Shown here piece after piece: positions 3,138 to 55,600 of a DNA stretch of 64,000 bases. A program made the translations under genes and the position numbers. The notes under the pieces were generated by a model. The model made no database searches. It saw only the letters and a program-made list of their open reading frames with translations, and was not told the origin of the DNA. This DNA is from Tetrahymena thermophila SB210 (taxonomy: Eukaryota > Ciliophora > Oligohymenophorea > Hymenostomatida > Tetrahymenidae): NCBI RefSeq assembly GCF_000189635.1, contig NW_002476380.1:558001-622000 (forward strand), written 5' to 3'. Each line of letters starts with the position of its first letter. The first letter of the stretch is position 1.

Positions 3138-5126
3138 ATAATGAACTTGAAATTTTTTATAAAAATAGATTCATGTAAATATTAGAAATGAAATAATGTT
3201 TATTAAAATGGTAATAGAAGTATAATGAGCTCATTTTTTATTTGCTCTAAGATCCATAAATATCAAATTTGTTTTTATATTTAAAAAATATCGTGATATT
3301 TGTTTATTAATTAATATGTCATAAAATTTAAATAAAATTTTTTTCTGAAGTATTAATACAAGATAAATTCTATATAACAATTCACTTTTTTTTTAAAGTT
3401 GCTGCTAATTTATACTATTAATCCCATTTATCTATGTAAATATATTCAAATAAATAGTTTTATTAAATAAAATATTTATAAAGCTCTATGGGTTATGAAA
3501 GCCTGTATATTAATTTTTTAAATTCAAATATGCTATTTTTAAGCTTGGATCACAAAGAATAAGCAGCTAATTTCAAAGAAAAAATCTGAAAAAAGAGTTA
3601 TTTAAAATTATTTGTAATTATTGTAATAAGCAGCTTTTCTTATACAACTGACCATAACTTTATAAAAAAAATATAAATAAGTGGGGATGAAAATTTTACT
3701 TTATTCAAGATACAAAAAATCAGATTTAAACTTTATAAATGAAAGCTCAAATAAAAATTAATGTTAATTTTATTCATTTATGTAAAAATTTCAAAGGTTT
3801 ATTTAAAAATAGGTTTATTATATAAATAAATACTTAAAATACTTAAATATTGTAAAAATACTTATATTATTTATTCTAATTTTAACCTCTTTCAAAAAAA
3901 AAAAACTAGAAACATTTAGTCAAATAATCTTAAAAAGAAAGATAATTAATTAATTGTTGATTGTTGTGTCATAAAATTTAAAAAATTAATTTTTCTTATG
4001 TATTAAAAAATCATGATTTGTGTGATTAAAGTTCTGTCAGAAATAGAAAGTTAATTTAAAAATCATAGATACGTCAAATTTAATGATTTAACTCTTAATA
4101 TTTGATTTTACTTTTTTAAAATGTTTAAATGAACTCGAAAAGTTATATGAAAATAGATTTATAGATTGTATTAGTTATATATATCTTTAAATAAATTGAA
4201 ATAAAGTGTATTATTATTTTTTTTAGTTTTAGAAAAACAAGGATTTTCAAAATAATTTGAAGACTATAACAAGAATTAATACACAAAATAATATAATTTG
4301 TTTTATAATATGTTGTTAAATACAATAAATCTTCAAACTTTATTAAAATTAAAAAATAAATATACCAAATTTTAAAAATAAATATTATGAAAAATACTAA
4401 AAAAGTATTTTTAAATATTTAGTTGTTTTGAGATAAAGATAAATGAAAAGTGATAACTTGAATTGTAAAATTACAAATAAATTTTTAAAGTCACTTCTTT
4501 TTTAATTTAATTAGTTAGTGAAATCTGTCTGTTTTTCTTTAATTAAGTTGAGTATTTTTAAAAATTATTAAGTTATTAAAATATGAAATCCCAAATATTT
4601 ATTTTTCTTTATATTAATTGAAATCCTACATATTTTTTTAATTAAATATTTCTTTGGATTAGCAAAGGTATTGAAGCATTATAATTTAAAATCGATTTCT
4701 AAAACTTCTCCCGTTTAAATAAAGTTAATATACTAATTAAAATATAAAAAATTAATTTATTCTTTCACTCTTTAAAATTTTATTTCAAAATTTATTTTAG
4801 CTCAAACAGATTTTTCACACTAATTTAATTTTAAGAAAAAATATTTATGTTTGTTTTAAAAACTTTAATGTTCTAAAAATTAACTTTTATAAAAATATCA
4901 ATTTTTATCAAATTAATATGTCATTTTCAATTACTTAATTTTTATATTTCTTTAGCAAATCTTTAAATAACAATTAATTTTACAATTTTTAGGCAAGCAA
5001 AGTTATTTTAAAATATTATTAGAATTTCGATATTTCAATTTTTATTTTATTCTTAGATATTTTCTGATACACAAAAATTAGTTAATTATTTAATTTAATT
5101 TAAGTTAAATAAATTAGTTTTAAATA

Positions 5127-6166
5127 ATGGATTAGGAAAAGAAAATCATAAATTAGGATATTAAGTATGTTTAATTGAATAATGGCTATAAAATGCCACT
5201 CTTAGGTTTAGGTACTTAACCTTACGATATAGTAACTAGGGTTACCGTTGAAGAAATGACAACCCTCCTATCAAATGCTCTTGATTTTGGTTACAGAAAT
5301 TTCGATACCGCAAAATAATATAGAAATGAAGTAGAAATAGGATAAGCATTTTAAAATATATTTTAGCAAGGAAAATATAAAAGAGAAGATGTATTTATAA
5401 CTACTAAGCTATTTCCTTTTAAAATTGAAAAAAAAATAAAAGAAGTTGTCTAAAATTCTCTTGACTAGCTTTAAACTAGCTATATTGATCTATATTTGAT
5501 CTAATGGAGTTTTACTCCTGTTTTAACAAATTTTGATGGGTCTGTTGCAGTTAACCATAGACCTATTCATGAAGTCTGGAGGGAATTAGAAGAATGTGTA
5601 GAATTAGGAATGATTAGGAGTATTGGAGTTGCAAATTTTAATTGTCAGATGGTACTTGATTTGCTAAGTTATGCTAAAATAAAACCAGTTGTAAATTAGA
5701 TTGAGGTCACTCCATATCTTCCTTAAATTGACCTAATTAATTTCTTAAAAAGATGCAAGATTGAGACTGTTGCTATTTCACCTTTAGGTTTATTTTTATT
5801 GATGCAAGCATAAAATAGTTAAATAATTTATTTTTACTTAAAAATACTATCATAGGCAGAGCAGGTTGTTTTGAAAATACCCCCGAAGGAATGAAAATTA
5901 AATTGTTAGAAGAAGATATTTTTAAATAAATTGCTTAGAAGCATAAAAAAAGTGTAGTTCAAGTAATATTAAGATGTCTAGTTTAAAGAGAAATAATGAT
6001 GATACCAAAGACAGCAAAGTTAGATAGGTTAAAGGAAAATAGTGAAATATTTGATTTCGAGTTAACAGAAGAAGATATGAAATAAATTTATTCATTAGAA
6101 AATGGAACTAGAGCTATTAATTTAAAGCACTCATAATGGTTTGGGTATGTACCTATATTTGATTGA
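5127..6166 (+). CDS. Aldo/keto reductase with substituted catalytic His
   Basis: A 323-residue single-domain aldo/keto reductase, a cytosolic NAD(P)H-dependent carbonyl reductase of the TIM-barrel AKR superfamily. Exons are 5127-5787 and 5856-6166, with a 68-nt phase-1 intron that restores SPLGRAGCFENTPEG. AKR landmarks are MPLLGLGT near the start, GYRNFDTAKQYRNE with catalytic Asp60 and Tyr65, ITTKLF with Lys94, ELGMIRSIGVANFN, PVVNQIEVTPYLPQ and, near the end, MIPKTAKLDRLKENSE for the cofactor. The fourth catalytic residue, normally His in DLYLIHWP, is Gln126 and is encoded by TAA. Length and order are typical of the family. ATG 5127 fits the usual N-terminal start. The gene converges on the histidine kinase gene 1 kb downstream. 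Family is certain; substrate is unknown. Confidence 0.93.
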
Positions 6167-7193: not shown

Positions 7194-10100
7194 TCATATC
7201 TAAATTTAGTTTAAAGATGGTATTTTATTATATTTCTTTAGGCACAATTGAAGATTTTCTAAAGAAAGAGGATGAAAGAATAATGCCAAAGCTCCTACCT
7301 GTTCAGCCATATTAAGATATTCTTAGTTGATTTCTTTCGAAACTAATATGACTGGTATATTTTAACTGTTTGGTAATTAAGAAATATATTTTTTCATTTT
7401 TCTTACATCTAAAAACGAGTCTCCAGATTTTGTATTGATACTCATGATAATCAATTTATAATTAAAATCTGGGTTAGAATATTGAAAGGCATCATTATCA
7501 GCATCAATTATTCTTTACAAAGCTATTTTACTATTTTCTGCTATATGTATTTCAATTTCTTTTACTTTTGTTTGGAGTAAATCTATTAGCGTGTTAATAT
7601 CTTCTTATTCATCATTTATGATTAGTATACGAGAATAATTTAAAAATCTTTTAAGATCTTCAAGGAAATCCATTTCAAATGTGTCAGCAGTACTCCTGAT
7701 TTTAGATAAAGTATTTGTAGTCTCTATATCATATTTTGATTTTAATTTATAATCCTTATGAATATAATGTACTTGCTAATCGTTATCAAAATCTCTTTTT
7801 TCTCCTATCTCTTCAGTCAAAAGACAAGCAGACTCAAATATTCCTTATGGCTATTGGTTCTATTAAAAATTTGGATAAAAAATTTACGATTATTAGTTAA
7901 GCATTAGCTGTAAGGAAGGTTAATGGTTTCTTATTTAGAATGTTTAAATTTGTCCTTAAGATGGTATAAATTATTCATGATTAATATTTTAGTTTCCGCT
8001 GCCTTATTTTTATATTTACTAGCCAATATTTTTTTGAATCTAATTATTTTATGTATTCTTTTTTTAAAATTGAATGCCTTGTCCATAATTTTAAGGATCA
8101 ATACCATTATAAGTGTAAGCTTGATTCTTTTTTACAATTTAAGAAGCAGAATGATCAATTTTAGACTGTGATCTTCTATATTGATCTAAAAATGCTTAGT
8201 TATTTTCTCTATTGAAGGAAATGAAATTAGTTCTACTATCGATCTATTTGAATATCTATGAGTAGTTAGAATATATTTTAAATCTTATTTCAACGTTACC
8301 ATCATCTTATTTAACAAAAAAATGAGAAGGTCCTATTCTCTCAACTAAACCCTAGCATAGTAGTAACTAAAGATTTTTACCTAAAAAATTAATTTAAAAG
8401 GGATTAATTTAATTGTTAAGGTTAGAACTAAAAATTTTAAATTAAATGATCTGATTTAGGAATTATATAATAAATTCATCTGTAAGCTTATACAAGGACC
8501 AAATTAAGAATAATAAATATATGAGAAAAAAATAAACAAATAAATAAATACCTGAAGTAAAGTCATCATATTTATTATCAAAGATTTAGAAACTTGATCT
8601 CAGCTATTGAATAATTTCCTTAGGCAAGAATGATTCTGTATGCTAAATGATAAATTCTATCGTTTCTTTCTTAGTATCATAATAACTCATATATATTTTT
8701 ATATTTCCTTCAGTGGTATATTTAAGTGATAAAGAAATAAGGTTAACAATAATCTATTTTAATCTTAAAAAATCAGAATTAATTTTTTCAGATTGATCAA
8801 TCAAGCTGCAGAATTCAAAATTGATGCATCTTTCTTTCATCTATTCTTCGAAAATCAATGATATATCGCTTTGTAACTAATTCACAGTAAACCAATTTTT
8901 TTTAATATCAAGTTATGAATTTACTAACCTGAAATAGTCTATAATATCATTCACAATGAAGTAAACTTGCATAGAATTTTATTTGGCAACATATGTAGCA
9001 TGATCATGATCAATTCCTTAGTCATTTAATGCATCTTTTATAAAATAATTTATATTAAGCAAACAACAAGCTATGTCAAGAAAAATAAAAATATTTTAAC
9101 AAATTTAATTTAAAACAAGCAAAACTTTTTCTTGAATTCTATTTGTATTTTTCAATGATGAAAATACATTTATTTAATAATTTAATGAGTTTTTAATAAG
9201 AAAATATTTTTAAATGATATTTTGTATTGTAAGCTTGAAAAAAATTATTTTAGTGCACTTGTTGATTATCCTAATGACAATTACCCAGTAAGCAATAAAG
9301 TAGATTAATATCTCACTGAAAAGAATAAATTTAGGGAAAATATTAAATGTGTATTTTAATTTTTTCTCTATTTAGAAAAATTTCAAAATATAAAATAGAA
9401 AGTATAAAGTAAAGAGTTGTTAAGATAAGATAAGATAATTAATGTATGTATGTATGTTCTAGTTCTAACTCAAAAAAATTTTTTATTTGAAATCTTACTA
9501 TAACTAAATTTATTTTACATTATGACTTTTCACATTTTAATTTTTTATCATTTCTCTTAAAAATAATTATCTAATATTAATTGTTAGCAGGATTAAAATT
9601 TTTACACAAATTATAAAAATAAACGCCATTTTTATGGTAAAATTCACCTTTTTATTTCTTAATTTGTTTATCCTTCCTACGAATATATAAAAATGTTATG
9701 CGCTTTTTTGGATGTAATTTCAATCTTAAAGATTCTTTAATCAAATTAAGGTATAAATAAATAAATACACTCATGTAAGTTGGCTTTTCTAAAATTCTTA
9801 TAAAAAAGAGTTTATAGATAAAATTTTGTACATAACGGACTTACTTATTTATAGTACCAGTAAAGAGTATAAAAATAAATTATCTCTATTTAAAAATGAA
9901 AAATTAATTTTATTTTACCAATGCAATTCATGAGCTTGCTCAGGGGAGGATTTATTTCATGCACCAAAGATTAAATCAGCTTCTCTTTTTATATTTCCCT
10001 ATACCTCTATTAGAAATATTTTTACTACTCAGTAATATCTTTCATTACTCCAATAATAGACGGGACTCCTTTAAATACACCTTCGTAAAGGTGTATATTG

Positions 10101-11713
10101 TAATATTTTATTTAATATCCAAAACCATTGTTTACTTGTCTTTCGCAATTTTCAAATGAAATAATTTCGCTAACTTCAAAAAAATCTGATTCTTCACCCA
10201 ATTCATCAAGAAAATACAAATTCGAATTTTAGCATTTCTTTTGTATTTTATTTTACTGGATTTTTTTCTAAATAAATTCAGTTAATGTGGATTTATAAAA
10301 TTTTTTTGGATTTTTATAATCATGTTCTTGAAGGCGACTACTGCTTGCTATTTAATTAGAACTGTTAGATTAATTATTTATACCCTTGCCATAAAAAAAC
10401 TACATATTATTCATCTACTTATGCTTATCTTAATTTTATTATTGCAACTCTTAAGAGAATTATAACTCTATAGCCTACTCAATTGGTATATATACAGTAA
10501 TTCTTTACATTTCTTACAAAAAGTAGTCAGTTTGATTAACTTTTTAATAAAATTCTTTTTGACAGGCTAAATTTTAAAATTTTAATGGGAGAGAATCATA
10601 TTCATCTGATGATATTTTTCTAGAGTCTAAATTACTTTGAGAAAATTTATTATATCTGGATTAGTTATTATCCATAATACCAACTATTTTTTCACTTCTC
10701 AAAGCTCCCTAAACATCACTTCCTATTTCTTCTGGGTGTTAAAATTGCAAATTTAGTTTATTTTTAAAAGAATTTTAAAAGAACTTCTTTTCTGATCTTT
10801 CAGACTCGAAATCAAAGTTTCTACTTATTTAAGAGGGTATACCTGGTATTTCTTAATTTCTTTACTGAGCCTATAACATATCAACGCTGAAACCTTTGAT
10901 CTATTTATTATTAGAAAAATCTTAAATTTAATCATGCCTTCTTTTCTGGTCTTTCTCCTCTTTTTCTATTATTTCTTGATTGAAATTTTTAACATTTAAC
11001 TTATCTATACTAGGCCTTTATTTAGCATTTGATATGGAGCCTTATAATCGCTGCGTAATATTTATTACAAACACAGGGTCTTAATAGCTTGTATCAAGAA
11101 ACTTTTCCCAATTTACCAAACTTTTACTTTTTTACTATAATATAAGGAACTATATTCGACTTTCTTTTTCTTGTTTGTATAAATTTAAAGTATATCCTAA
11201 CAAAATTAAGCCTGTTATCACATATGCTATTATCTCTAAATCATAAAATATATTTAAAAGAATAGCATTTACTATTATAAATATTATTTTTATAGTCCAT
11301 TAAGAGGTAAAAAAGCAGTTAACTAATAATTAAAGTAATCCACCAATAAAATACAAATCTTATTTATAATTACCAGTGATGCTTTCACTATATTATGATG
11401 TGGACAGAAGTATTAACGTAACTAACACAGATCCTGACGATATAATAAATACAGCTTGATTTAAGTAAAAGCGGTACTAGCTTAGCGCTGCCTAGAGCAC
11501 AGTAGAAATCAAATTCAAAATAGCTAATGGTATAATTGAGTAGCTGAAATTTGAAGCTATGAAAAGTATACCACAAATAATAAGTTAAATTATAAACGAT
11601 ATGAGTAGTTGTAAATGTCCATGAGAATATTTTTTTTATTAGTAGTGCTCAAAACTATCTTGTAGTTCTTTTGTCTGAAATTACAGTGTGAATAAATTTA
11701 ATGGATTGCCCAT
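7194..11713 (-). CDS. Membrane hybrid histidine kinase, probably catalytically inactive
   Basis: A 1,199-residue hybrid sensor histidine kinase. Exons on the minus strand are 11713-9919, 9070-8552 and 8479-7194 (introns 848 and 72 nt, both phase 1), summing exactly to 3,600 nt. Order: ATG 11713 gives MGNPLNLFTL; then about six membrane segments to about residue 220; a PAS-like sensor region ending GVMKDITEQQ; an H-box LVHEINPPLSKLM with His585; a HATPase-like fold; an Asn/Gln-rich linker; and a C-terminal receiver from about residue 1054. The kinase core is eroded. The N-box reads NLISLSLKYT and lacks the Mg-binding Asn, the D-x-G-x-G motif reads QHTESFL, and the G2 box reads GKNLQLLLCQG. The receiver has Ser at about 1118 for the phospho-acceptor Asp and FFHP where Lys-Pro is usual. 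The frame is otherwise intact, so this looks like a maintained pseudokinase/pseudoreceiver. The gene is divergent from the UNC93-like gene. Confidence 0.88.
9421..9456. repeat. Short tandem tracts (AAGAT)n and (TGTA)n
   Basis: AAGAT units at about 9421-9437 followed by TGTA units at 9443-9456, lying inside the 848-nt first intron of the histidine kinase gene. Confidence 0.6.
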
Positions 11714-12968
11714 TTTTTGTATATCTGTTTTTGAATTAAATTCTTATATTTTAGTACACTTTAAAGATTTATTTTTTTTTTCTGCTTATTATTATTTTAA
11801 GAGTATGCGAATATTAATTAATTAGTTAGTTAGTATATTTATTTTTATGGAATTTTAATTACAGGTCTAACAATTAATTAATCATTTGCTAAGATTATAA
11901 ATCATTAAAATAACATCATTAAAATAATTAGAAAGAAATTTTCATAAATCTGACTCAATAGTTAGACTAGTTAGTGCTAGATAGAATTTTAATTGATTTC
12001 TTAGATTATTTTATCTATTTTTTAGTATTCACTCTTACATAGTATTTTTAAAAAACAATATTTTTACTTTTGTAGGATATTTTAATCTTACTTTACATTA
12101 ATTATTATTTATTATTTTACATTTATTTAATCATAATCTTACTCCTGTAAATTTCTGATGTCCCTCAATATTTTTAGATTATTTATTCAGAGGGAGTAAA
12201 TTATTAATTCTTTTGCGAAATCTCCTTTTTAAAATTAAGAATTTTTAAAAATATCTTCTTATCGTCTCCATTTTAAAGTAAATTTTCTAGGATGTACTCA
12301 AATTAATAATTTTTAACAGTAAAGTTTTAATCAAGTTCTTTATTATACTTCAATAACAATCTCGATAAATTCAACTGCTAAGTACGATTTAAATTTTATT
12401 TTTTTTCTTAATTCATAGAAAAAATACAATTTGAAATAATTATGAAACAAATAATGCTAAATTTAGAGCTTTAAAACAATTAAAATTTAAAGATTTTCTA
12501 ATTGAATAAAAATAGCTAAATTTAACAATAAAATTTTTTTATTTTTATTTTATTTTATGATTTTAGTCAATTTTAATAAAAAGAAATATTTTCCAAAAAA
12601 TCATAATAAGATTTCTTTAACTTATTTATTTTTCTATTCTAAATTTAGAAAGTAATATTTTTTATCAAAAATAATATTTTTTTAAATTAATTTAAAATAA
12701 AATATTTACTCCCTATTTAATAAATAAATTAAAACAAAAAAATAAATAAATTGTATAAATTATATTTTTCAATTAACGTTTTACTGATTTTTGATTTTAA
12801 TTAAAAACGATTATTTCTTGATGACAACTTAAATCTTTAAAGATATTTTTAGTAATAATTAGTTATCTATTTATTTAATTAATTTTAAAAATATCATCAA
12901 AATTTGATTAACTATCACCAATTAGCATTATAAAAAAAGCTTAATATTTATTAATCTAGTTTAGAAAA
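11714..12968. other. Divergent intergenic region
   Basis: A 1.26 kb AT-rich region between the starts of the histidine kinase (-) and the UNC93-like gene (+). It must hold both promoters, but no recognisable element stands out. Confidence 0.55.
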
Positions 12969-14393
12969 ATGATTTAGAATTAAGACTAATTAAGCTATTC
13001 TTAGGCAAAATTTAAAGTTGTCTACTTAAGCGTCTCCTTTTTAATACTCTTCACAGCTTATAGCTCTACTTAGAATATTATTGGAGTGCTGTTTAAGGAA
13101 CAAGGATACGAATAGCTTGGATTCACATCATTGATATTTTTATATTTTTCTTTTGCTATTTCTACACTTTTTGTAAATAGGATCATCAAAAAATATTCTT
13201 ACAAAACAATATTCTCTTTAAGTAGCATTGGATACACTCTCTTGAATATCAGCGGTATATGGGTAACAGTGTGCAAGTAAGAAGAAAAAATTGGAATTTG
13301 CTCCAATTAACTAATATACTCAATTACTTTTATTTTTTCAGCGCTTTGTGGTATTTCTGCATCTACTATATGGGTAGCTTAAGGAGTTTACATAGATCAA
13401 CTCAGTAGCTAGATACCTTAGCATAAAGGATCATTATATGGTTTATTTTGGTCTATATTTTTAGTGAATAATATCATAAGTTGCATTATGAGTGCAGTTA
13501 TTATTAACTTTAGGAAACCTTTTGACTTTTTCATTGTGACTAGCTCCTTAGGAATTATTGCAACTATATTCTTTACATTTATACCTCAGCCAACTAATAA
13601 ATAAGAGGAACCTCATTAGGTTAGAAATCTAAGATGTGAAAAAGATTTATCAAAGAAAGAGTAGCTCAAAAAAATTTTTAAGCTGATAATATCTAAAGAA
13701 ACAAGGTCATTGATGGTCTTTACATGCTTTTCTGGAGTTATTATGAGCTTTTGCTCAGGTTTTTTATCTGAGTTAGTTGAAGATTCAATAGGAGTAGAAT
13801 AAATAAAAAAAGAATTAGAGAGTTAAAAGTTGAGCTTAGTATGTATATGTCTGGGTTTCTTTGAAGTTTTATCAGGAATTGTTTCGCATAAATTAGGTGA
13901 CAAGATATCTCCAAATAAGCTAGCTTCATTCAGTTCTCTAGTTTCGCTATTCGCTATTATGCTTTCATTTGTTGGGCTAATTTCACATAATTTCTTTTTT
14001 TGCTTTCTAATCGGTGCAAGTTGGGGCTTTAGTGATGGATTATTTGAAAATCTAATGTCTATAATTGCGTCAAAAAGATTTGGTGGATCAGTTTTCATAT
14101 TTTAAGCTATAATTTTTATTTAAAATATTGGATTTTGTTTTTCATAACTCCTATTTACAATGCTCGAATCATAACCTATTTACGTTTATCCAATGATTGT
14201 TAATGTAATTGCTTTAATTACCAATGTCTCTTTGTAATTTGAAGAAAAAAACGATCACCAATAAAGCTATGTAAAATTAGATTAAGAATATTCATTATTG
14301 CCAGAAAAATATGACATTAGTGAAAAAGATACCGATGAATCAGAAGGATTAGGAAATTTAATAACTCCAGATTTTATGGAGAGCAGGCTTTGA
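12969..14393 (+). CDS. UNC93-like major-facilitator membrane protein
   Basis: An intronless 474-residue polytopic membrane protein of the UNC93/MFS fold. After a short polar start it reads TAYSSTQNIIGVLFKEQGYE and then LGFTSLIFLYFSFAIS, the conserved UNC93 opening. Roughly 11-12 hydrophobic segments follow in two halves. The halves are separated by a polar, charged loop at about residues 220-255. Helices near 265-285, 310-330, 345-375 and 390-430 form the second half, including the motif GASWGFSDGLFEN. The C-terminus is acidic and soluble. UNC93 proteins regulate ion channels or the trafficking of other membrane proteins; transport activity is not established. ATG 12969 is the first in frame and TGA 14391 is the stop, with many internal TAA/TAG Gln codons. 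Family assignment is good; function is inferred. Confidence 0.88.
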
Positions 14394-32051: not shown

Positions 32052-33864
32052 TCATTAAGAATGATATGCAGAAGTATCTGCAACTATTTAACTCATACAG
32101 CAAATAAGATTTTCTGTAAATTATAAATGGAGCATTTCATTAGGACCTTTTAAATTTAATTAATAAATTAGATTAAAAATCATTAAAAAATAATTTTTTA
32201 TACCATGAGCATTAGAATGAGGACCTAGCACACCAGTTACAATAAAATTGATATTAGGAAATTTATCTTAAAGTTTATTCATCAAAGGAATAGAACCACC
32301 TTCAGCCAAGAAACGACTTTCATTGTTAAAATAATTTAACGAAGATTAATTAAAAGAGTTGGTTAAATGCTCTGGAGTTTCTTTTGCATCCCATCCATTA
32401 GCAGAACTTAAAATATCACACTAATTTTATAAAATAAATTCTATTAATTTCAAACATATATTAAATTTAAATATTTTACAGTAACTGTAGCATCGTAGGG
32501 AGGATTAGACTCGATCAACTCTTTTAAATTTTTTCCAGCCTAAACAGCATCTAAGTTAGGAGGCAATCTTAAAGAGATTCTAATTTTTGTTTCTGGTAAA
32601 AGAACATTACCTGCAGTTTAGCAAGCAGGAAGTCCATCAGCACCAACTACAGCTAATTGAGGTCTCCAAGTCTTATTAAGATAAGCTTAAAGTGGATCTT
32701 AAGACATTGATTTGGTATTATTTGAATATGGGAATTTTAAGAAAATGTCTTTTGATAAATCTTTTGCAACATCACAAGCTTATGAATATCTGTTTAAATT
32801 ATTTTATAAATTTAAAATATTTAATACTACCAAAATTAAGTAATAAACAAACCTATGAGCTGGAATGTTAGTTTAAAATAATTCATGAACTTGACCACTC
32901 TTAGAATCTTCTAGTCTATCTAAAAGATTTCTCAAGATTCTAAATCCTGAAGGTACTACTCCACTTGCGTCTAATAAATAATATATTTATAAATTTCTTT
33001 TTTTTAATTGTCAATAGTAAATTTTACCTCCAGAGTGAACACCTTCATTAAGAACTTTGACTGTGATTTCTGCCTTGATATTTCCCCTTAAACAAGTTGT
33101 TAGCCACATAGTATCATAGGTACCACAACCACTATCCAAGCAGAAAATATAATCAGGTGTTTATATCTTATCTTTAAGCCTTTCTAAATAATTCATGTAA
33201 TGGAAACTTCCACTTTCTTCTTCTCCTTCAATTGTAATTATACAACGAGGGTGAGGGAATCCAAGCTTTTAGCAAGCTTTAATGGATGTTACCTTTATTT
33301 GACAAAATCATGTTACAATAAAATATATTAAATTTACTTAAACTATATATTATATGTAAGATAAAATTTAATTACTGCAGCATAAACTGAATATCCATCA
33401 TCTGATCCACCTCTTCCATAAAGTTTTCCATCAATGATAACAGGTGTAGTAGGTCCAGTTCCTTCCATCCAACCACTGAAATGAGGTTGCTTATCATAAT
33501 GTCCATAGAAGAGAATGGACTTTCCTGAGTTATCAGTTGGATTTACTTCAATAAATAAGAGAGGAGGTTTTCCTTCATCTTGAATAATTTAAACTGAAGC
33601 GCCTTTTAATTCTTGAGCAATGACCCATGCTTTAATGTGTTCAGCAGCCTAAATAAGAATTGAATACTTAATTAATTCTTAAAATATCAAATAAGTAATT
33701 ACTTTCATGAGTAATCCATTTTTATTCCATTCTGGATCATACATAGGTGATAAATTTGGTATTCTAATATAATCCATGATAGATGGTACGATGTTTGAAG
33801 AGAATTAAGAGTTTACATACTCTTTAATTTATTAAACTTAATCTTTAGTTCTTAAATAAGACAT
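32052..33864 (-). CDS. M20 family dipeptidase (CNDP2-like), copy 1
   Basis: A 479-residue cytosolic-type M20 metallopeptidase resembling cytosolic non-specific dipeptidase (carnosinase family), which hydrolyses dipeptides with two bound metal ions. Exons on the minus strand are 33864-33703, 33648-33376, 33292-33028, 32970-32853, 32789-32480, 32420-32204 and 32146-32052, summing exactly to 1,440 nt. The catalytic core is intact: FYGHYDKQP with the first metal ligand, GRGGSDDGY with the bridging Asp, IEGEEESGS with the catalytic Glu pair, IFCLDSGCG, and LGPHSNAHGPNEMLH with the C-terminal metal ligand. The lid/dimerisation domain sits between them (DASGVVPSGFRI to AGNVLLPET). There is no signal peptide. 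Introns are 54-83 nt. A paralogue with the same intron positions lies at 37395-39392. The gene is divergent from the SDR gene. Confidence 0.95.
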
Positions 33865-34919
33865 TTGATAACAATTCTAATTAACTCTTTGATATTTGCT
33901 AGAAAAAATAATTATCTTTTTAGGATATATTTTTTACTCGATTTTTGATGCTAATTTTTTGATAATCATATTTTTATTAAAAAAATAAAAGTAAATAGTT
34001 TGCATGAATTAAAAAATAGAATATATCTTTATATTTCAAATTCATTCTAGATTTTTAAAAAGTATTAAAATTTATTTATTTATCTAAAGATATTAAATTA
34101 GAATCTCACTTTCTTTAAATAACATTCAATTATAAAAATATTTTAAAATTCAAAACAAATGAATATCATATATTAAAGCCTTCCTTTGGTATTTGGTGGA
34201 TTGGATAGATAGCATTCTCAAATATATTTATTTTTTATTATGTATTTAATTATGTGTTTGAAATATTGAGAATAAATTTATTTTTAAAAGTTATCTAATT
34301 ATTTTTTTAATTCTTAATTTTAATTATAATAAATGGTTCTATATTTTTTCTATAATTTACTATCTTTATTATAATAAATATTACCATATATTGATATTCA
34401 AAAATAAAAAAATAATAAAATATATAAAAAAAAATATTTTTTATCAAAATCTTTTTTGATCAGGTAAAAATAACTTTCTCAATTATGCTTTATATTTATT
34501 TATTTATTGTAAGATCTTTTGATTGTTTGTGTTTCAATTTCCTTTAAATGTAATCCATTATAACTGTTAAAATTTGAAATAGAGTAAATGTTTATTTATT
34601 TAGAATTTACTATTTCGCATAATTATTATTACATTATTATATTTTATAAATTTACTTTATTGATACACTACAAAAAATATTAATTAAAAATTTCATAAAA
34701 AAGTGTTTGGTTACTTAAATTACCTTTCTTATGTACCAAAAAGTGTCTATTCAAACACCAATCAAAAAAAACTATTAAATTCAATTAAAAAATGTTATAT
34801 TAAAAAACTTAAAATCTAAGTTTTTATAAAGTGTCTAAGTAATTTCCAAATTGAAAATAATTAATCAAAAATATCTATTTTTTGTAATTATTATTTTTTA
34901 GATCAAAAAGGAAAATAAA
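33865..34919. other. Divergent intergenic region
   Basis: A 1.06 kb AT-rich stretch between the starts of dipeptidase copy 1 (-) and the SDR fusion gene (+). It probably holds both promoters. No distinct motif is recognised. Confidence 0.55.
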
Positions 34920-36831
34920 ATGAGTGCTTAAAACGAAGGATAGTTAGAAAATAAAATTGATGAAAATAATGGAGAAAGCTTTGATGATAATATAACTAAA
35001 GGAGATCAAAATGCATTGTAAAGTTAAAAAATCAGCTTTTAAGAGTTGAAGTAGCTTGTCAATTCAATTGATGAATAGAATATTGATCCTTCTAAATACT
35101 TTGAAATAAAATAAATGGCAAATACTTTACTAAATAGAGCTAAAAGAGTTAGAAGATAGTAAGGAGTGGAAGTTAGAGTAGAATAAGATAGATAAATGTT
35201 AGAGAAAACTGCTCTCGCTCAGAAAAAGAAAAAAGAAAATTAAGATATTTTAAAATAGCTTTCTGATTTTGGAAAATAAAAGGCAATTGAATATAAATAA
35301 GACCCTTCTTTAGCGAAAAGAAAAAATGATTTTAATCAACAAGATGAGTCATAAGATGATGAAGAATATTAGTTTATTGAAAGCGATATTTCTAAAAAAA
35401 TTAAAACATCTTAATAAAATAATTAGGAATCTATGGATTAAGAAGATTAATAACTGAGAAAGGATGGCTCATTATTCCATTTAAATAAGCCAAAAAAATG
35501 CTATGTTTGCAGGTAATTATATAGAAAAGTACACCCTCATTATCATTCTATGTGCCTAGATTGTGGAAACTTCAACTATAATAAAAGAATAGAATAAAAA
35601 TATGATTTAACAGGAAAAGTTGCAATAATTACAGGAGGTAGAATTAAAATTGGCTATTTAACTTCATTATTGCTCCTTAGAAATAATTGTGTTGTCCATG
35701 TTACTACACGTTTTCCAAAAGATGCACTAGAGAGATACAAAAAAGAGACTGATTATGATTCTTTTAAGGTAAATTAAATAAATCACATCAAATGAAATAA
35801 ATAAATATAAAGTTTATTTTATAATTTAGGATAGATTATTTATTTATAGTTTAGATTTCAGAAAAATTAGCTCGGTAATTGAGTTTTGTGACTTTTTTAA
35901 AGAAAAGTTTGGAAAACTTGATATTCTGATAAATAATGCAGCATAATGTGTAAAAAGAGAAGCATCTTACTTTAAATATTTAATTGATGTTGAGTCCAAG
36001 CCTTTGAAAGAGTATTCTGATTCAGATTTAAAAGTCTTACAAAATGATTTAGAACTTAAACAGTATGAAGCAGATAAAATTAAGTAATTAAATTCTACTC
36101 AGCTGGAAAATGTTTCCTCAGCTGACTAAGATCTATAAACAGTAGATTCACTTCAATAAAATAATATTGAAAAACAATTAATGTAAATACAATAAACTTA
36201 AGATCTAGCTTTTTGCCATTTTTCTGAATCTGTGTTGATGAATGTTAAACCTGTTTTAGAAGGACAAAAGACAGAAAAGGATAAGCTTTATCCTGAAGGT
36301 GTAGTTGATTCAAACGGAATACAAGTAGATCTTGCATCTAAAAATTCATGGAACTCGAAACTAGATGAAGTGCCTTTATTTGAATTTATGGAAACTTAAG
36401 TAATTAATGCATGGGCTCCTTTTGTTTTATGCCAAAAATTAAAAGATTGCATGACTATTACACCTGAACAGTAAAAAGAATATAAATTTATTGTAAATGT
36501 ATCTTCAGTTGAAGGTTAATTTCACATGAGAAATAAACCAGTATACCACCCCCATAATAATATGTCCAAGGCATCATTAAACATGCTTACCAGGACAACA
36601 GGACCTTAATATTCTTAAGAGTATAACATTTTTATGACTTGTGTCGATACAGGTTGGGTTTCAAATGACATGATTCCAAAGAGCTTTCTCTTTGATAATG
36701 TTTACAAAACAACTCCATTAGATGAACTTGATGGTGCTTTAAGAGTTGTAGATCCAATATTTGAAGGATACAAAACAAAAAAACCTATTTGCACAGTTTT
36801 TTTAAGAAATTATAAAGTGGCAGAGTGGTGA
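34920..36831 (+). CDS. Zinc-ribbon-like domain fused to short-chain dehydrogenase
   Basis: A 616-residue protein in two exons, 34920-35768 and 35830-36831 (61-nt phase-0 intron). Residues 1 to about 190 are acidic, Gln- and Lys-rich and probably disordered. A possible zinc site follows: CYVC at 194-197 and CLDC at 212-215, with a His-rich loop (HPHYH) between. A Rossmann-fold SDR domain begins at about 232 (GKVAIITGGRIKIG), with LDILINNAAQ and VNVSSVEGQF further on. Where the catalytic Y-x-x-x-K is expected the sequence reads HPHNNMSKAS, keeping Lys but placing Asn at the Tyr position. An insert of roughly 110 residues after the NNAA motif is not typical. SDRs are NAD(P)H oxidoreductases; here redox activity is doubtful and the role is unknown. 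The gene is nested between two dipeptidase paralogues but unrelated to them. Confidence 0.88.
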
Positions 36832-51263: not shown

Positions 51264-52613
51264 TCATTATTTTTTAAGAGTAAATAGAGATTTCTTTTTA
51301 TGATGGCTTCTTTTTTTAAGATCGGATACTGAACCGCTTCTACAGAGTTCGAGGAATTTTAATTATTCTTGCATGTTTTGAACTTTGCTATTCACTATCC
51401 AATCAGTTGCGGGTTATCCAAGGAATTCTATGAAATAAGAATGATATGGAGAATTAGTTAAAAGCTTTATTATAAGCTCATTATTTGTTTTGTTAGAAGA
51501 AATATAACGCTTGAAATTAAAGAGAAATCTTTTATTCTCTGAGTTAGCCTTTTGAGTATATTTAAAGAAAGATTTAAGTAAATTTTTTGAAAAATTTCTC
51601 GATTTGTTGTAGAGTTATTTTTCCTTTGTAATGTTGTTTTAATTTTGAGAAGCTTCTTCACTCTCTAAAAGGTTTTCTTCATCCAAAGATTATTCGCTGA
51701 GCTTGTTATCATCAAGTGAGAGCGATTTTTGGTTGATATCAGAATTATTTTAGAGAGAAAATAGGTTATCCTGAGAACTAGTTTTCTTTTCTTTAAAAAT
51801 TATAAATCTTGAAGAATTTTATTGGCTTTATATTTTTAGTTCAGTGGTGGAACTTTTATTGTTTTCATTCATGCATAAGCTTGTGGAACCTTCATCGATT
51901 AAATTAGAGGATTTGCAATTCTCAGCATTCTTTGTACTGGGTTCATCAGTATGAATTGAGAGTCTAATTCCTTTAAAATGGGTTGATCTACTTAATGGGG
52001 AATCAATTTATTATTGCTAGAATTATTCACAAGAATCTTTAAAAGCACTATTTTTTTCTTGCAAAATTAAATTAGAAAAATGTTATGTGTTGGAAATATT
52101 CGATTAAGAGATATTGCAAGAATGAGCTTAATTTATATTTATATTATTTTCTTATGAAGATTACTATTAATTACTTATAGAAGAATCTTTTTTAATCAAT
52201 TATTTAGTTTCAGTATCTTGATTAACTTGTAAATTTTCAATTTTATTATTATTTTGAATTGTTTAACTCATCGCTTATTAAATTTAGTTAGCCATATATT
52301 AATTATCCACAAAATTTTATTCATTATTCTAAGATTATTAAGCATTTTCTGTGACGTTTATTTAAGAAGAACTTGGATAATTAGATGCTAATACTTAACA
52401 CTAGTTATTGAAAAATAACTGTGATAATTATTATTATTATGAGGGAGTGAAATACTAAAAACCTCCTTAAAATGGAATAGAAAAAACATAATTTGAAGCA
52501 TTTTGTGGCATTTGTTAATAAACAGTGCCTTATTATACATAATATGGATTGAAGTTAAAATAGTAGGGGGAAATCATATTGGGCTGTTGGCAACTAGCAT
52601 ATGATCCAAGCAT
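51264..52613 (-). CDS. Gln/Asn/Ser-rich protein with ordered basic C-terminus
   Basis: An intronless 449-residue protein, ATG 52613 to TGA 51264. Residues 1-100 are Tyr/Pro/Gln/Asn-rich (PNMISPYYFNFNPYY and similar), 100-310 are Gln/Asn/Ser-rich, and 310-330 are acidic. The last 120 residues change character: helical and basic, with FSKNLLKSFFKYTQK, RFLFNFKRYISSNK, LIIKLLTNSPYHSYFIEFLG, WIVNSKVQNMQEQL and a Lys/His-rich end. This segment looks like a folded domain and has the feel of a ciliate-specific family with a disordered N-terminus and a conserved C-terminus. I do not recognise it by name. No signal peptide or membrane helix is seen. A nucleic-acid-binding or transcriptional role is possible from composition, but this is only an inference. 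Confidence 0.8.
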
Positions 52614-55600
52614 TGCTGTTATGTTGTAAAGATGATGATTTTTTATTATTTAGTTTAGTAGCTAACTAACTAACTAACTCTATAGGTTGGAGATATTAAT
52701 AGTATATTAAATTAAGTTAATTTCTTTTAACAACTTATTTTTATTATTCTTTTGTTTTTTAGCTTTTCAATTTTTTTTTTTTTGTAATTAACTATGAAAG
52801 CTTAATAGATGAATATTTTCAAGATTTAACTCTCCTTGTACGTAGACCAGGCTATAATTAAAATTGATTATTGTGAAGAGAGATTTTAATTATTTTGCAA
52901 ATAAATTAGCAGCAGTAGCTGAAATAAAAAAGATTAGTGTGATTAATTAAGAGTCCTAGATAGGGTGGGGTTAAAATTTTAGTGAATTATGTAAAATATG
53001 CTTCTATACTGAATTAATTGATAATAATAATAATACGTCTATGTTTTTCTACTTAAATTTGAAATATACTCATTTTCAAATATAAATAATTTATTGCTCT
53101 TTGCCAAACCTATTCATTTCTCTTTCTCTCTTAGTAATTCACAATAAAAACCTAAAAATTAATCACATTGAAAAAGTGCTTTTATTTATTTTTCATTCAT
53201 TTTATTCTTAAGTATTCTGAAATGTTAGAAATTCATCTGACATATGATTCTCTTTTAACTTATTCATTGATTCAATTTAACTTACCAGATATTAAATTTT
53301 ATATTTTCTTTTCTTTGGGCTTTGCTAATTATTTCTAAAATCTTAGTTTGCAAAATATTTGCTAACTCTTCATTTTATGGATGTACAAAATGCTAAAATA
53401 ATTATGATAATAAATAAATAAACATATATATCTGATTTCTTAATCAAAAATGAAGATATAAAATCATTTAGAATGAATGATTCCTTGAAAATTTTAATTT
53501 TCATCGATTAGAAAGTAATTAAATTCAACAACTGCATGCTAAAGTTTTAAACAGGATAGGTAAAATTATAAAAAAATGACATTAAAGCATTCAAAAGGTT
53601 TTATTTTAAAGCCATCTATTTCTTTTTTATGCTTGAGCTTATTTAAACAATTAGAATGTAATATTATTAGAAGACTCTTACTGAATAGCCAAAAATTTCT
53701 TTTAGTATTATTTTAATTAACAAACTATTGAATAGCACAAAGTAGTATGAATTAAATACAAACATTTATCAAACTTGAAAATTATTAGAGGCTTCTAAAT
53801 TAATATACATTTTTCAATAGAAAATTTGAAAGCTAAAAAAAATTGAAATTTATCATTTTTTTTCTTCAAGTTTTTGTTGTGAAATCTTGATCTAAAAATT
53901 ATTTAAATTAAAATACACTGTTAACACAATCAAGAAAGTCAATTAAATCAAATTCTAATCTAGAATTGAAAATTTGCTTTACCAAATGCTTTTGTTTTGT
54001 TTTATTTTTTATTATAAATTTGGTATTATTAATACACCAAATGCCAAAATTAATGCCTCAGATATTTTATCTCCTCATAGAAATTCATTTTCTGTAAATG
54101 AATGTATTTAATTATATTAAAAGTAGTAGAAAGATTTTAACTCTTATTATTACCTTACTACTTACAATACAAAAAATAACAAAAATGTGAGGGAATTAAT
54201 TTTTTTTCTTACCCAGATAGAAATGTTCTAACTCAATCTATCTTTTAACTAACATCTATTTTGGAATTCAAAATTTTAGACACCAAAATTATCACATTTG
54301 ATTACAATTTCAGTAATCTATCAAACAAATGTTGATTATCTGAATCTTTTAAATCAAATATTTTAATTTTAAATTCTTTCGTTTCATAAAAAAAAAAAGA
54401 GTTCATTTAAAATATTTTAAATTTTATTTTAAATTTAAAAGATAATTTAAAATAAACTCTTGAAAGAAGACAGTTGAGAATAAAATTTATTCTTCTTTTT
54501 TTATTTAAAAGAGCATTCTACTATTTAATTCTAAATAGTAAGTAACAAAATAAATAATTAGCTAAACTTCTTCTAGATTTTATCAATATCATTACCAAAT
54601 TGAAAAAGAAATTTGAATCAAAACTCAAAAATTTTATTATTACTACTACCAAAGATAAGTGCATTAAAATAGTCGAGTATTATAGCAAATACACTCAATT
54701 TAATTTTTATGATAAGAAAAAATTGGAGTAAATCCAAAATTCTCCACAAAATTTTAAAATACTACATCGGAGATATTTTTATAGAACTGTAAATTCAAAA
54801 AATTCAGAAAGCTTTTAATTATATTAAATAAGAAAGTATATTTTGTAATTTATCAAAGCAATCGATTTAATGCAAAAACCTCTACTATCTATCCATAACA
54901 AAATGGGATGCTTTAAAAAATTATGTTAGTAAATTAATTGTATCTCAAAAATACTTATGGCTCTTTCAAAATCTTCATACAATTTTTCACTATTTATGAT
55001 AACTTTATATTTTTTAAATATTTTACGATAGTATGAATGTTAATGGCTCTTTACCTTATTCTAATTTATTTTTTATCATTTTTCAAAAATATTGTCCAAT
55101 CTCACAATTAATTGATTAATCATTTAAAAATTTGAATGTTAAACTTCTATATTATTACAGCCAAAGCTATTTACGGAAAGTACAAATCCAGATAATATAA
55201 AAAAATATTTATTTAAAACAAAATATTTTTTTTGTTTTATCATTATAACAGAAAAAGAATCAAACGGGTAGATCTAATTTAACCACTAAATCACTAGTTA
55301 ACTAATTAATGCTATTTTGTATTAATAAATAATTAAAAAAAATCAAGTAAGAAGAATAATTTTTCAAAATTTATCTAACTCAATTTATGGGTAAAAATAA
55401 ATTGAAGTTATTTTTCAAAGATTTTTGTTATTTCTGTTTATATATCATACGCCTAATAATTACAAGTTTAGTCTATTTAAGCTATTTATGAAATTTCCGT
55501 TTTACAATATTAAAATTATAAAATGACTATTATAATTTCACACATACACAAAACCTTGTAATAAGTATTTAAATATACTTATTTAACAATTCTAAATGAA

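Follow-up and report, generated by a model that had tools for sequence, protein, structure and literature searches.

A Tetrahymena thermophila hybrid histidine kinase gene predicted to be catalytically dead in both its kinase and its receiver

Background

What is left for a hybrid histidine kinase to do once the catalytic residues of its kinase and of its receiver have both been replaced? The question is raised by a gene on the minus strand of Tetrahymena thermophila SB210, at positions 7194 to 11713 of a stretch of 64,000 nucleotides, hereafter the window (contig NW_002476380.1, positions 558,001 to 622,000; C157:558001-622000 in the 101 Mb, 445-contig genome that we searched). An initial annotation had read this gene as a full-length kinase whose catalytic motifs are lost while its frame is undamaged. 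Having followed up that reading, we propose that the gene encodes a maintained, catalytically dead hybrid histidine kinase which would most likely dimerise with active hybrid kinases among its paralogues or offer a regulator a docking site, a proposal to which we give about an even chance. The genome was assigned to T. thermophila by its telomerase: a stretch at locus L098 is identical to the telomerase reverse transcriptase in PDB 6d6v, the T. thermophila enzyme, along most of their alignment, and the parts that differ, roughly the first 50 residues and an insert of 21 residues, resemble read-through into introns.

Histidine kinases are greatly expanded in ciliates according to PMC3341644, and PMC2636879 gives for Tetrahymena a 48-gene 'Histidine kinase DhkL' family, 42 members of which are expressed. 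Our literature searches returned little on the wiring of ciliate histidine kinases and, among the matches listed, no title on a ciliate histidine pseudokinase. Known histidine pseudokinases come for the most part from bacteria and plants. There are precedents for a dead histidine kinase and for a dead receiver; a hybrid that combines the two adds a new form. With one member plainly dead and its paralogues intact, this genetically tractable organism allows a direct test of whether its hybrid kinases signal through heterodimers.

Results and discussion

Catalytic residues lost and kept

All features of the gene described below lie on the minus strand, and residues are numbered on our preferred model of 1,166 codons. 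In the ATP-binding domain, the profile alignment puts Leu712 (NLISLSLKYT; 8730 to 8732) at the position of the Mg-binding Asn of the N-box, an Asn that stands in each of the 65 paralogues in which we read the N-box. The G1 box reads HTESF (residues 742-746; 8628 to 8642) for DTGxG, with H742, E744 and F746 replacing the Asp and the glycines. In 58 of the 65 genes DxGxG occurs in the same stretch as the N-box; three others (L015, L069, L076) have it in another stretch, a further three (L071, L100, L105) show DxG before an apparent intron, and L104 stops short. The G2 box reads GKNLQL for GVGLGL: its first glycine, G772, whose codon is split by intron 2, is kept, while the other two are N774 and Q776 in the KNLQL that follows (8364 to 8378).

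In the receiver, Ser1085 (7440 to 7442) stands in place of the phospho-accepting Asp, which is present in 42 of 42 aligned paralogue receivers, and His1141 (7272 to 7274) in place of the conserved Lys, present in all 41 of the receivers that reach it; those aligned were 42 of the 50 listed, themselves the 50 that were scored out of 88 candidates. The first residue of the acidic pair is lost (N1027) and the second kept (D1028), the Thr/Ser position is kept as S1119, and the loop after the acceptor position is altered, with Lys for Pro at D+4 and Ser for Gly at D+8; in the paralogues this loop has its Met and its Pro without exception (42 of 42) and its Gly in 98%.

In the H-box (LVHEINPPL), His585 (9959 to 9961) and Glu586 are kept, and the residue at +4 is Pro589 (HEINPPL). 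A Thr or Asn at this place serves phosphatase activity. A motif search returned H-boxes from 25 paralogues, with Thr at +4 in 23, Asn in one and Gln in one, although the motif demanded E, D or N after the His and Pro at +5, and the sample is accordingly not a free one.

The lost codons were re-read at their coordinates in the sequence, and 9 of the 12 catalytic codons considered differ from the canonical residue. The initial annotation was therefore right about the N-box, about Ser and His in the receiver and about the preserved His585, the Pro at +4 aside; its statement that both glycine boxes are destroyed holds for G1 and only in part for G2. It had also asked whether intact N, G1 or Asp residues might be placed elsewhere in the protein. 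Family-profile alignments placed none there, other receiver-profile matches reaching at most 2.2 bits and the other ATP-domain match -2.3. The gene has neither the N-box Asn, G1 DxGxG, G2 GxGxG and +4 Thr/Asn of an active kinase nor the acceptor Asp and Lys of an active receiver and, since the N-box, G1 and G2 residues fail, we do not class it as an active histidine kinase.

The 65 genes of the comparison are those in which the N-box stretch was read and which score at least 18 bits with the paralogue profile. The searches were seeded with canonical profiles or with this gene, which favours recognisable members, and other degenerate genes may exist. Eleven loci fall outside the count (C114:877695, C269:395473, C247:56968, C262:83596, C262:106969, C396:138676, C279:189805, C17:1068622, C174:557364, C249:82397 and C424:179665), as does L077, whose N-box lies outside the stretch read or beyond an insert. 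In L077 itself (C430:34700-35500), G1 (DTGKG) and G2 (GSGIGL) are kept, no N-box was recognised and a long low-complexity stretch precedes G1.

Identity of the domains

Exon 2 (8552 to 9070), which holds the second dimerisation helix (X-box) and the ATP-binding domain through G1, matches the NCBIfam kinase models LuxQ (1.8e-15) and TorS (3.1e-14), and its best-scoring paralogue is about 32% identical over this kinase region. Profiles built from the paralogues, searched against this protein alone, score 44.8 bits (E 5.5e-16) for the ATP-binding domain and 33.9 bits (E 1.6e-12) for the receiver, at residues about 1023-1152 (7239 to 7628). Pfam scores fall under their cut-offs, at 23.8 bits against 26.4 for HATPase_c and 15.3 against 30.2 for Response_reg. 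Searched with exon 3 (7194 to 8380, stop included), the genome gave no match but exon 3 itself at E up to 0.01, and the sequences of solved structures gave none at E up to 1; a blastp search of the frames compared here linked its receiver to that of L086 (1e-4). Modelled by AlphaFold from its sequence alone, at low confidence (mean predicted local distance difference test score, pLDDT, 53), the receiver alternates strand and helix five times (beta-alpha x5), and the model's top Foldseek matches in the PDB are receivers or CheY-type proteins, RR468 and CheY among them (best E 2.2e-5). Two further attempts gave nothing usable: a structure model of exon 2 alone (pLDDT 47.6) and the sister group in a kinase-core tree (support 0.134).

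Exon 1 (9919 to 11713) is an open frame of 598 amino acids with a G+C content of 0.264, and comprises a membrane region, a low-complexity Q/N-rich linker, a PAS-like stretch and the H-box. It has five transmembrane-like segments (11195 to 11608; residues 36-54, 59-77, 87-105, 130-148 and 155-173; Kyte-Doolittle, window 19, cut-off 1.6). For the PAS-like region, a Pfam search with exon 1 gave no match at all, HisKA failing to recognise even the H-box region, and what speaks for a PAS-like C-terminal stretch, running into the start of the H-box (residues 530-593; 9935 to 10126), is a weak match to the paralogue L010 (E 0.0016, 30% identity).

On these scores the predicted domain identities are above chance, and the architecture of a hybrid histidine kinase is present in full: a dimerisation and histidine phosphotransfer (DHp) region with His585 and the X-box, HATPase_c and a C-terminal receiver. 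The gene shares with its Tetrahymena paralogues the order of membrane region, H-box/X-box, HATPase and receiver, a spacing from H-box to N-domain of 113 residues (within the 100-176 of those listed paralogues whose H-box falls in range) and a frame break in G2 that falls at the same place in several of them. It differs from them in lacking the N, G1, most of G2 and the receiver Asp and Lys, all of which the paralogues that were read keep. By descent and architecture, as predicted from the sequence, we group it with the Tetrahymena hybrid kinases as a pseudokinase/pseudoreceiver.

Selective loss in an open frame

We called a position conserved when at least 80% of paralogues agree in residue class, and took as the catalytic set of the ATP-binding domain the N-box Asn, the D, G and G of G1 and the three glycines of G2. 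In exploratory counts, 1 of the 7 catalytic positions is kept up to the helix after G2, against 29 of the 31 remaining conserved ones (Fisher P 7e-5); counted across the entire domain the figures are 1 of 7 against 29 of 39 (Fisher P 0.005). In the receiver the division runs along another line: 18 of 21 hydrophobic positions are kept, against 6 of the 16 that are polar or small (P 0.005). On this tally the predicted active-site face of the receiver is lost broadly and its hydrophobic core is kept.

The open frame provides a second line of evidence. Translated by the ciliate code (code 6), in which TAA and TAG are Gln, the exons contain no in-frame TGA, and the claim of an undamaged frame, from a first ATG at 11713, is borne out. 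A neutral simulation on the coding sequence, with substitutions only, accumulated on average 11.7 in-frame TGA codons by the depth at which 57% of the twelve catalytic codons had changed and 15.7 at 80%; none of 100 runs was free of TGA at either depth. Because the loss at the ATP site is selective and the frame has stayed open where neutral runs fill with TGA, the pattern favours a fast-evolving gene that is kept over one that is decaying. Catalytic loss with much of the fold kept, as first put forward for kinase and receiver, is thus upheld by the lack of intact motifs elsewhere, the lack of in-frame TGA and the concentration of loss at the catalytic positions of the ATP-binding domain. The stronger statement, that decay is limited to catalytic residues, is not: the ATP-binding domain is poorly kept after G2, and the catalytic positions of the receiver are not significantly worse kept than its others.

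Several observations weigh against a maintained protein working through a partner. Maintenance by selection is something we infer from the pattern only. In the selectivity tests the sets were chosen with the finding already known, positions were counted by eye and the columns are not independent; in the receiver, moreover, 2 of 5 catalytic positions are kept against 22 of 32 others, which is not significant (P 0.32), and the poor state of the ATP-binding domain beyond G2 argues against a wholly intact fold in that part. Even when the catalytic columns are masked, the gene has a terminal branch of 1.48 (median 0.68), which ranks third in length among 64 sequences, behind L064 and L073, and a root-to-tip distance of 2.59 (median 1.39), one of the largest; the gene evolves fast. 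Synonymous codon usage (0.011, against 0.020 +/- 0.011 for paralogue blocks and up to 0.011 for intron 1) does not clearly separate it from non-coding sequence. As a test for an N-terminal membrane module that the gene might share with two paralogues, the real sequence ranked 2 of 201 when set against its own shuffles, a weak result that is suggestive only. Finally, no partner kinase or receiver was seen in the window among stop-to-stop frames of at least 200 amino acids, where the best others among the matches listed reach 4.0 and 5.6 bits.

Proposed function and its rivals

On our reading, the protein would be a membrane sensor whose ATP-binding domain should fail to hold Mg-ATP and whose receiver should escape phosphorylation. 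By itself it should run no phosphorelay, because ATP binding, the residue at the phosphatase position and receiver chemistry are gone. It has lost the chemistry of kinase, phosphatase and receiver yet retains His585 and the two dimerisation helices, and we expect it to act by binding: it would form dimers with active paralogous hybrid kinases, or dock a regulator, and the activity of the partner would be set by the dead protein's own membrane input. The likeliest sign of such an effect would be a lowering of the partner's phosphorelay output, and His585 could still take phosphate in trans from the partner. By analogy, this would perhaps let the protein scaffold or inhibit an active hybrid kinase, as was first suggested. 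This rationale might be extended to the family as a whole: a membrane sensor subunit that keeps its phospho-accepting His, having abandoned ATP binding, phosphatase chemistry and its own receiver, would plug into active paralogues, and heterodimers with this one dead protein would do part of the wiring among the 65 or more other histidine kinases of a single cell; we regard so broad a scheme as rather doubtful.

The most serious rival is a receptor or scaffold free of catalysis that pairs with no active kinase, its homodimers signalling through the docking of other proteins. The same residue losses would be expected, the Q/N-rich linkers present in the protein could be docking regions, and DivL, reported to sense a phosphorylated regulator (PMC4211667), provides a precedent. 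Against it stand His585 and a second DHp helix like that of active kinases (the LuxQ match given above), which exceed what homodimer scaffolding needs, and we consider this explanation unlikely, if well worth keeping in mind. Plant ethylene receptors with degenerate kinase domains homodimerise and signal by docking.

Less probable again is a trans-phosphorylated platform, in which the active partner of a heterodimer phosphorylates His585 and the phosphate then passes from His585 to the receiver of the partner or to a carrier apart from it, so that only the protein's own receiver is bypassed. Retention of His585 and Glu586 despite loss of the +4 residue, the ATP site and the receiver would suit such a platform; this amounts, however, to two retained residues in one sequence, within a region to which Pfam HisKA is blind.

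A young pseudogene or relaxed gene, having lost its function recently and keeping an open frame for lack of time, would suit the long terminal branch, a codon usage that lends constraint no support and the poorly kept end of the ATP-binding domain. Set against these are nine catalytic changes without a stop or frameshift, the 29 of 31 other conserved positions kept up to G2 and the many in-frame TGA codons that neutral change of that depth would leave, which make it improbable. That a faulty gene model, a misread genetic code or an assembly error has produced the losses is hardly credible, for although the two introns are predicted only and the second has already been corrected, the lost residues number nine separate positions inside uninterrupted exons, in profile register with the paralogues on both sides.

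Comparison with known systems

One kinase acting on another, as in the preferred reading here, has a precedent in RetS of Pseudomonas aeruginosa, a hybrid kinase that reduces signalling by GacS along three routes and possesses transmitter phosphatase activity (PMC5992135). RetS is one of seven PDB sequences that match exon 2 (E 2.9e-6, residues 34-139), a likeness that runs through the common kinase fold, and it shows that one hybrid kinase may lower the phosphorylation of another. It differs in keeping the N-box Asn in the aligned stretch (LLDNAFKQT) and in its phosphatase activity, whereas here the residue thought to serve that activity is Pro.

Use of the kinase fold without catalysis, through dimers or docking, is also found in DivL and in an evolved ChrS. 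DivL is described as lacking kinase and phosphatase activity and as having Tyr for the His (PMC4211667), in contrast to the His585 kept here; the ChrS pseudokinase, which heterodimerises with HrrS, arose through a frameshift in its catalytic and ATP-binding domain (PMC9491836), whereas the present frame is intact. Neither protein is described in these sources as having a dead receiver. A pseudo-histidine kinase is one that lacks at least one kinase function and still takes part in signalling; of these two features, the present sequence shows the residue losses.

The receiver has parallels of its own. PMC12632262, which discusses pseudo-histidine kinases as well and treats as pseudo-receivers those computed receiver domains that lack key phosphotransfer residues, puts the share of sampled receiver domains without the Asp at 2.0% and describes mechanisms outside plants as mostly unknown; N1027, S1085 and H1141 place the present domain, which scores under the Pfam cut-off, within that definition. 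Like the bacterial pseudo-receivers of that source, it has also lost the Pro at D+4 and the Gly at D+8, and unlike them it has kept the second acidic residue (D1028) and lost the first, the reverse of the commoner pattern. A receiver fold without acceptor Asp and Lys is likewise shared with plant pseudo-response regulators, ShkA and FrzS; the replacement here is Ser, in contrast to the Glu usual in plants. Plant ethylene receptors and phytochromes are eukaryotic proteins that carry a histidine-kinase-like region without full kinase function, with sensors that differ from that of this gene.

Gene model and introns

The gene runs from the first ATG at 11713 to a TGA that finishes at 7194, in three exons whose limits and splice sites are predicted from the DNA letters. 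Intron 1 (9071 to 9918) is of 848 nucleotides with GT..AG ends, a G+C content of 0.186 and an acceptor 3' of a T-rich tract; from the donor at 9918, acceptors at 9131, 9125, 9071 and 9035 are all in frame, and 9071 is preferred. This intron is as first annotated. For intron 2 (8381 to 8551), a length of 171 nucleotides fits better than the 72 given at first, which correspond to its 5' part, and the total falls from 1,199 to 1,166 codons. Residues up to 771 keep their numbers and later ones are lowered by 33, so that the acceptor position earlier placed at about 1118 becomes Ser1085.

Three points lead us to prefer the longer intron. The 99 nucleotides that it adds have a G+C content of 0.152 against 0.245-0.264 for the exons; it joins DDFTSG to KNLQLLL directly after the first glycine of G2, and the joined DDFTSGKNLQLLLCQGLVERIGP matches the paralogue pattern around GVGLGL without an insertion; and the frame breaks right after that same glycine in the paralogues L013, L044, L052, L053 and L055, and a few residues earlier in L048. 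An intron 2 of 171 nucleotides is thus more likely on the sequence, with 72 kept as possible.

Both lengths are multiples of three without an in-frame TGA; forms that retain or only part-splice the intron would accordingly stay in frame, adding 57 or 33 residues to the ATP lid. The 3' part of intron 1 (9071 to 9719) is also open, in the frame of exon 2, where an 841-amino-acid stop-to-stop frame starts at 9719; its composition looks intronic.

Neighbouring genes and other loci

A frame matching MFS_1/UNC-93 (12825 to 14390, plus strand) lies head to head with the kinase gene, and an aldo/keto reductase frame (4587 to 5891, plus strand) lies downstream of it. Farther along the window are a weak match to peptidase M20 (33196 to 34035, minus strand), a short-chain dehydrogenase match (35458 to 36828, plus strand) and a DUF4441 match (51267 to 52766, minus strand). 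Elsewhere in the genome, contig C368 holds a cluster of kinase genes, with six HATPase matches within about 52 kb (about 96.8-149.0 kb), whereas the dead gene has no kinase neighbour that we could see in the window. L064 and L073, the paralogues with the longest branches, both keep the N-box Asn; L064 combines this Asn and DTGVG with an odd G2 (GNGVGG) and a long insert before G1.

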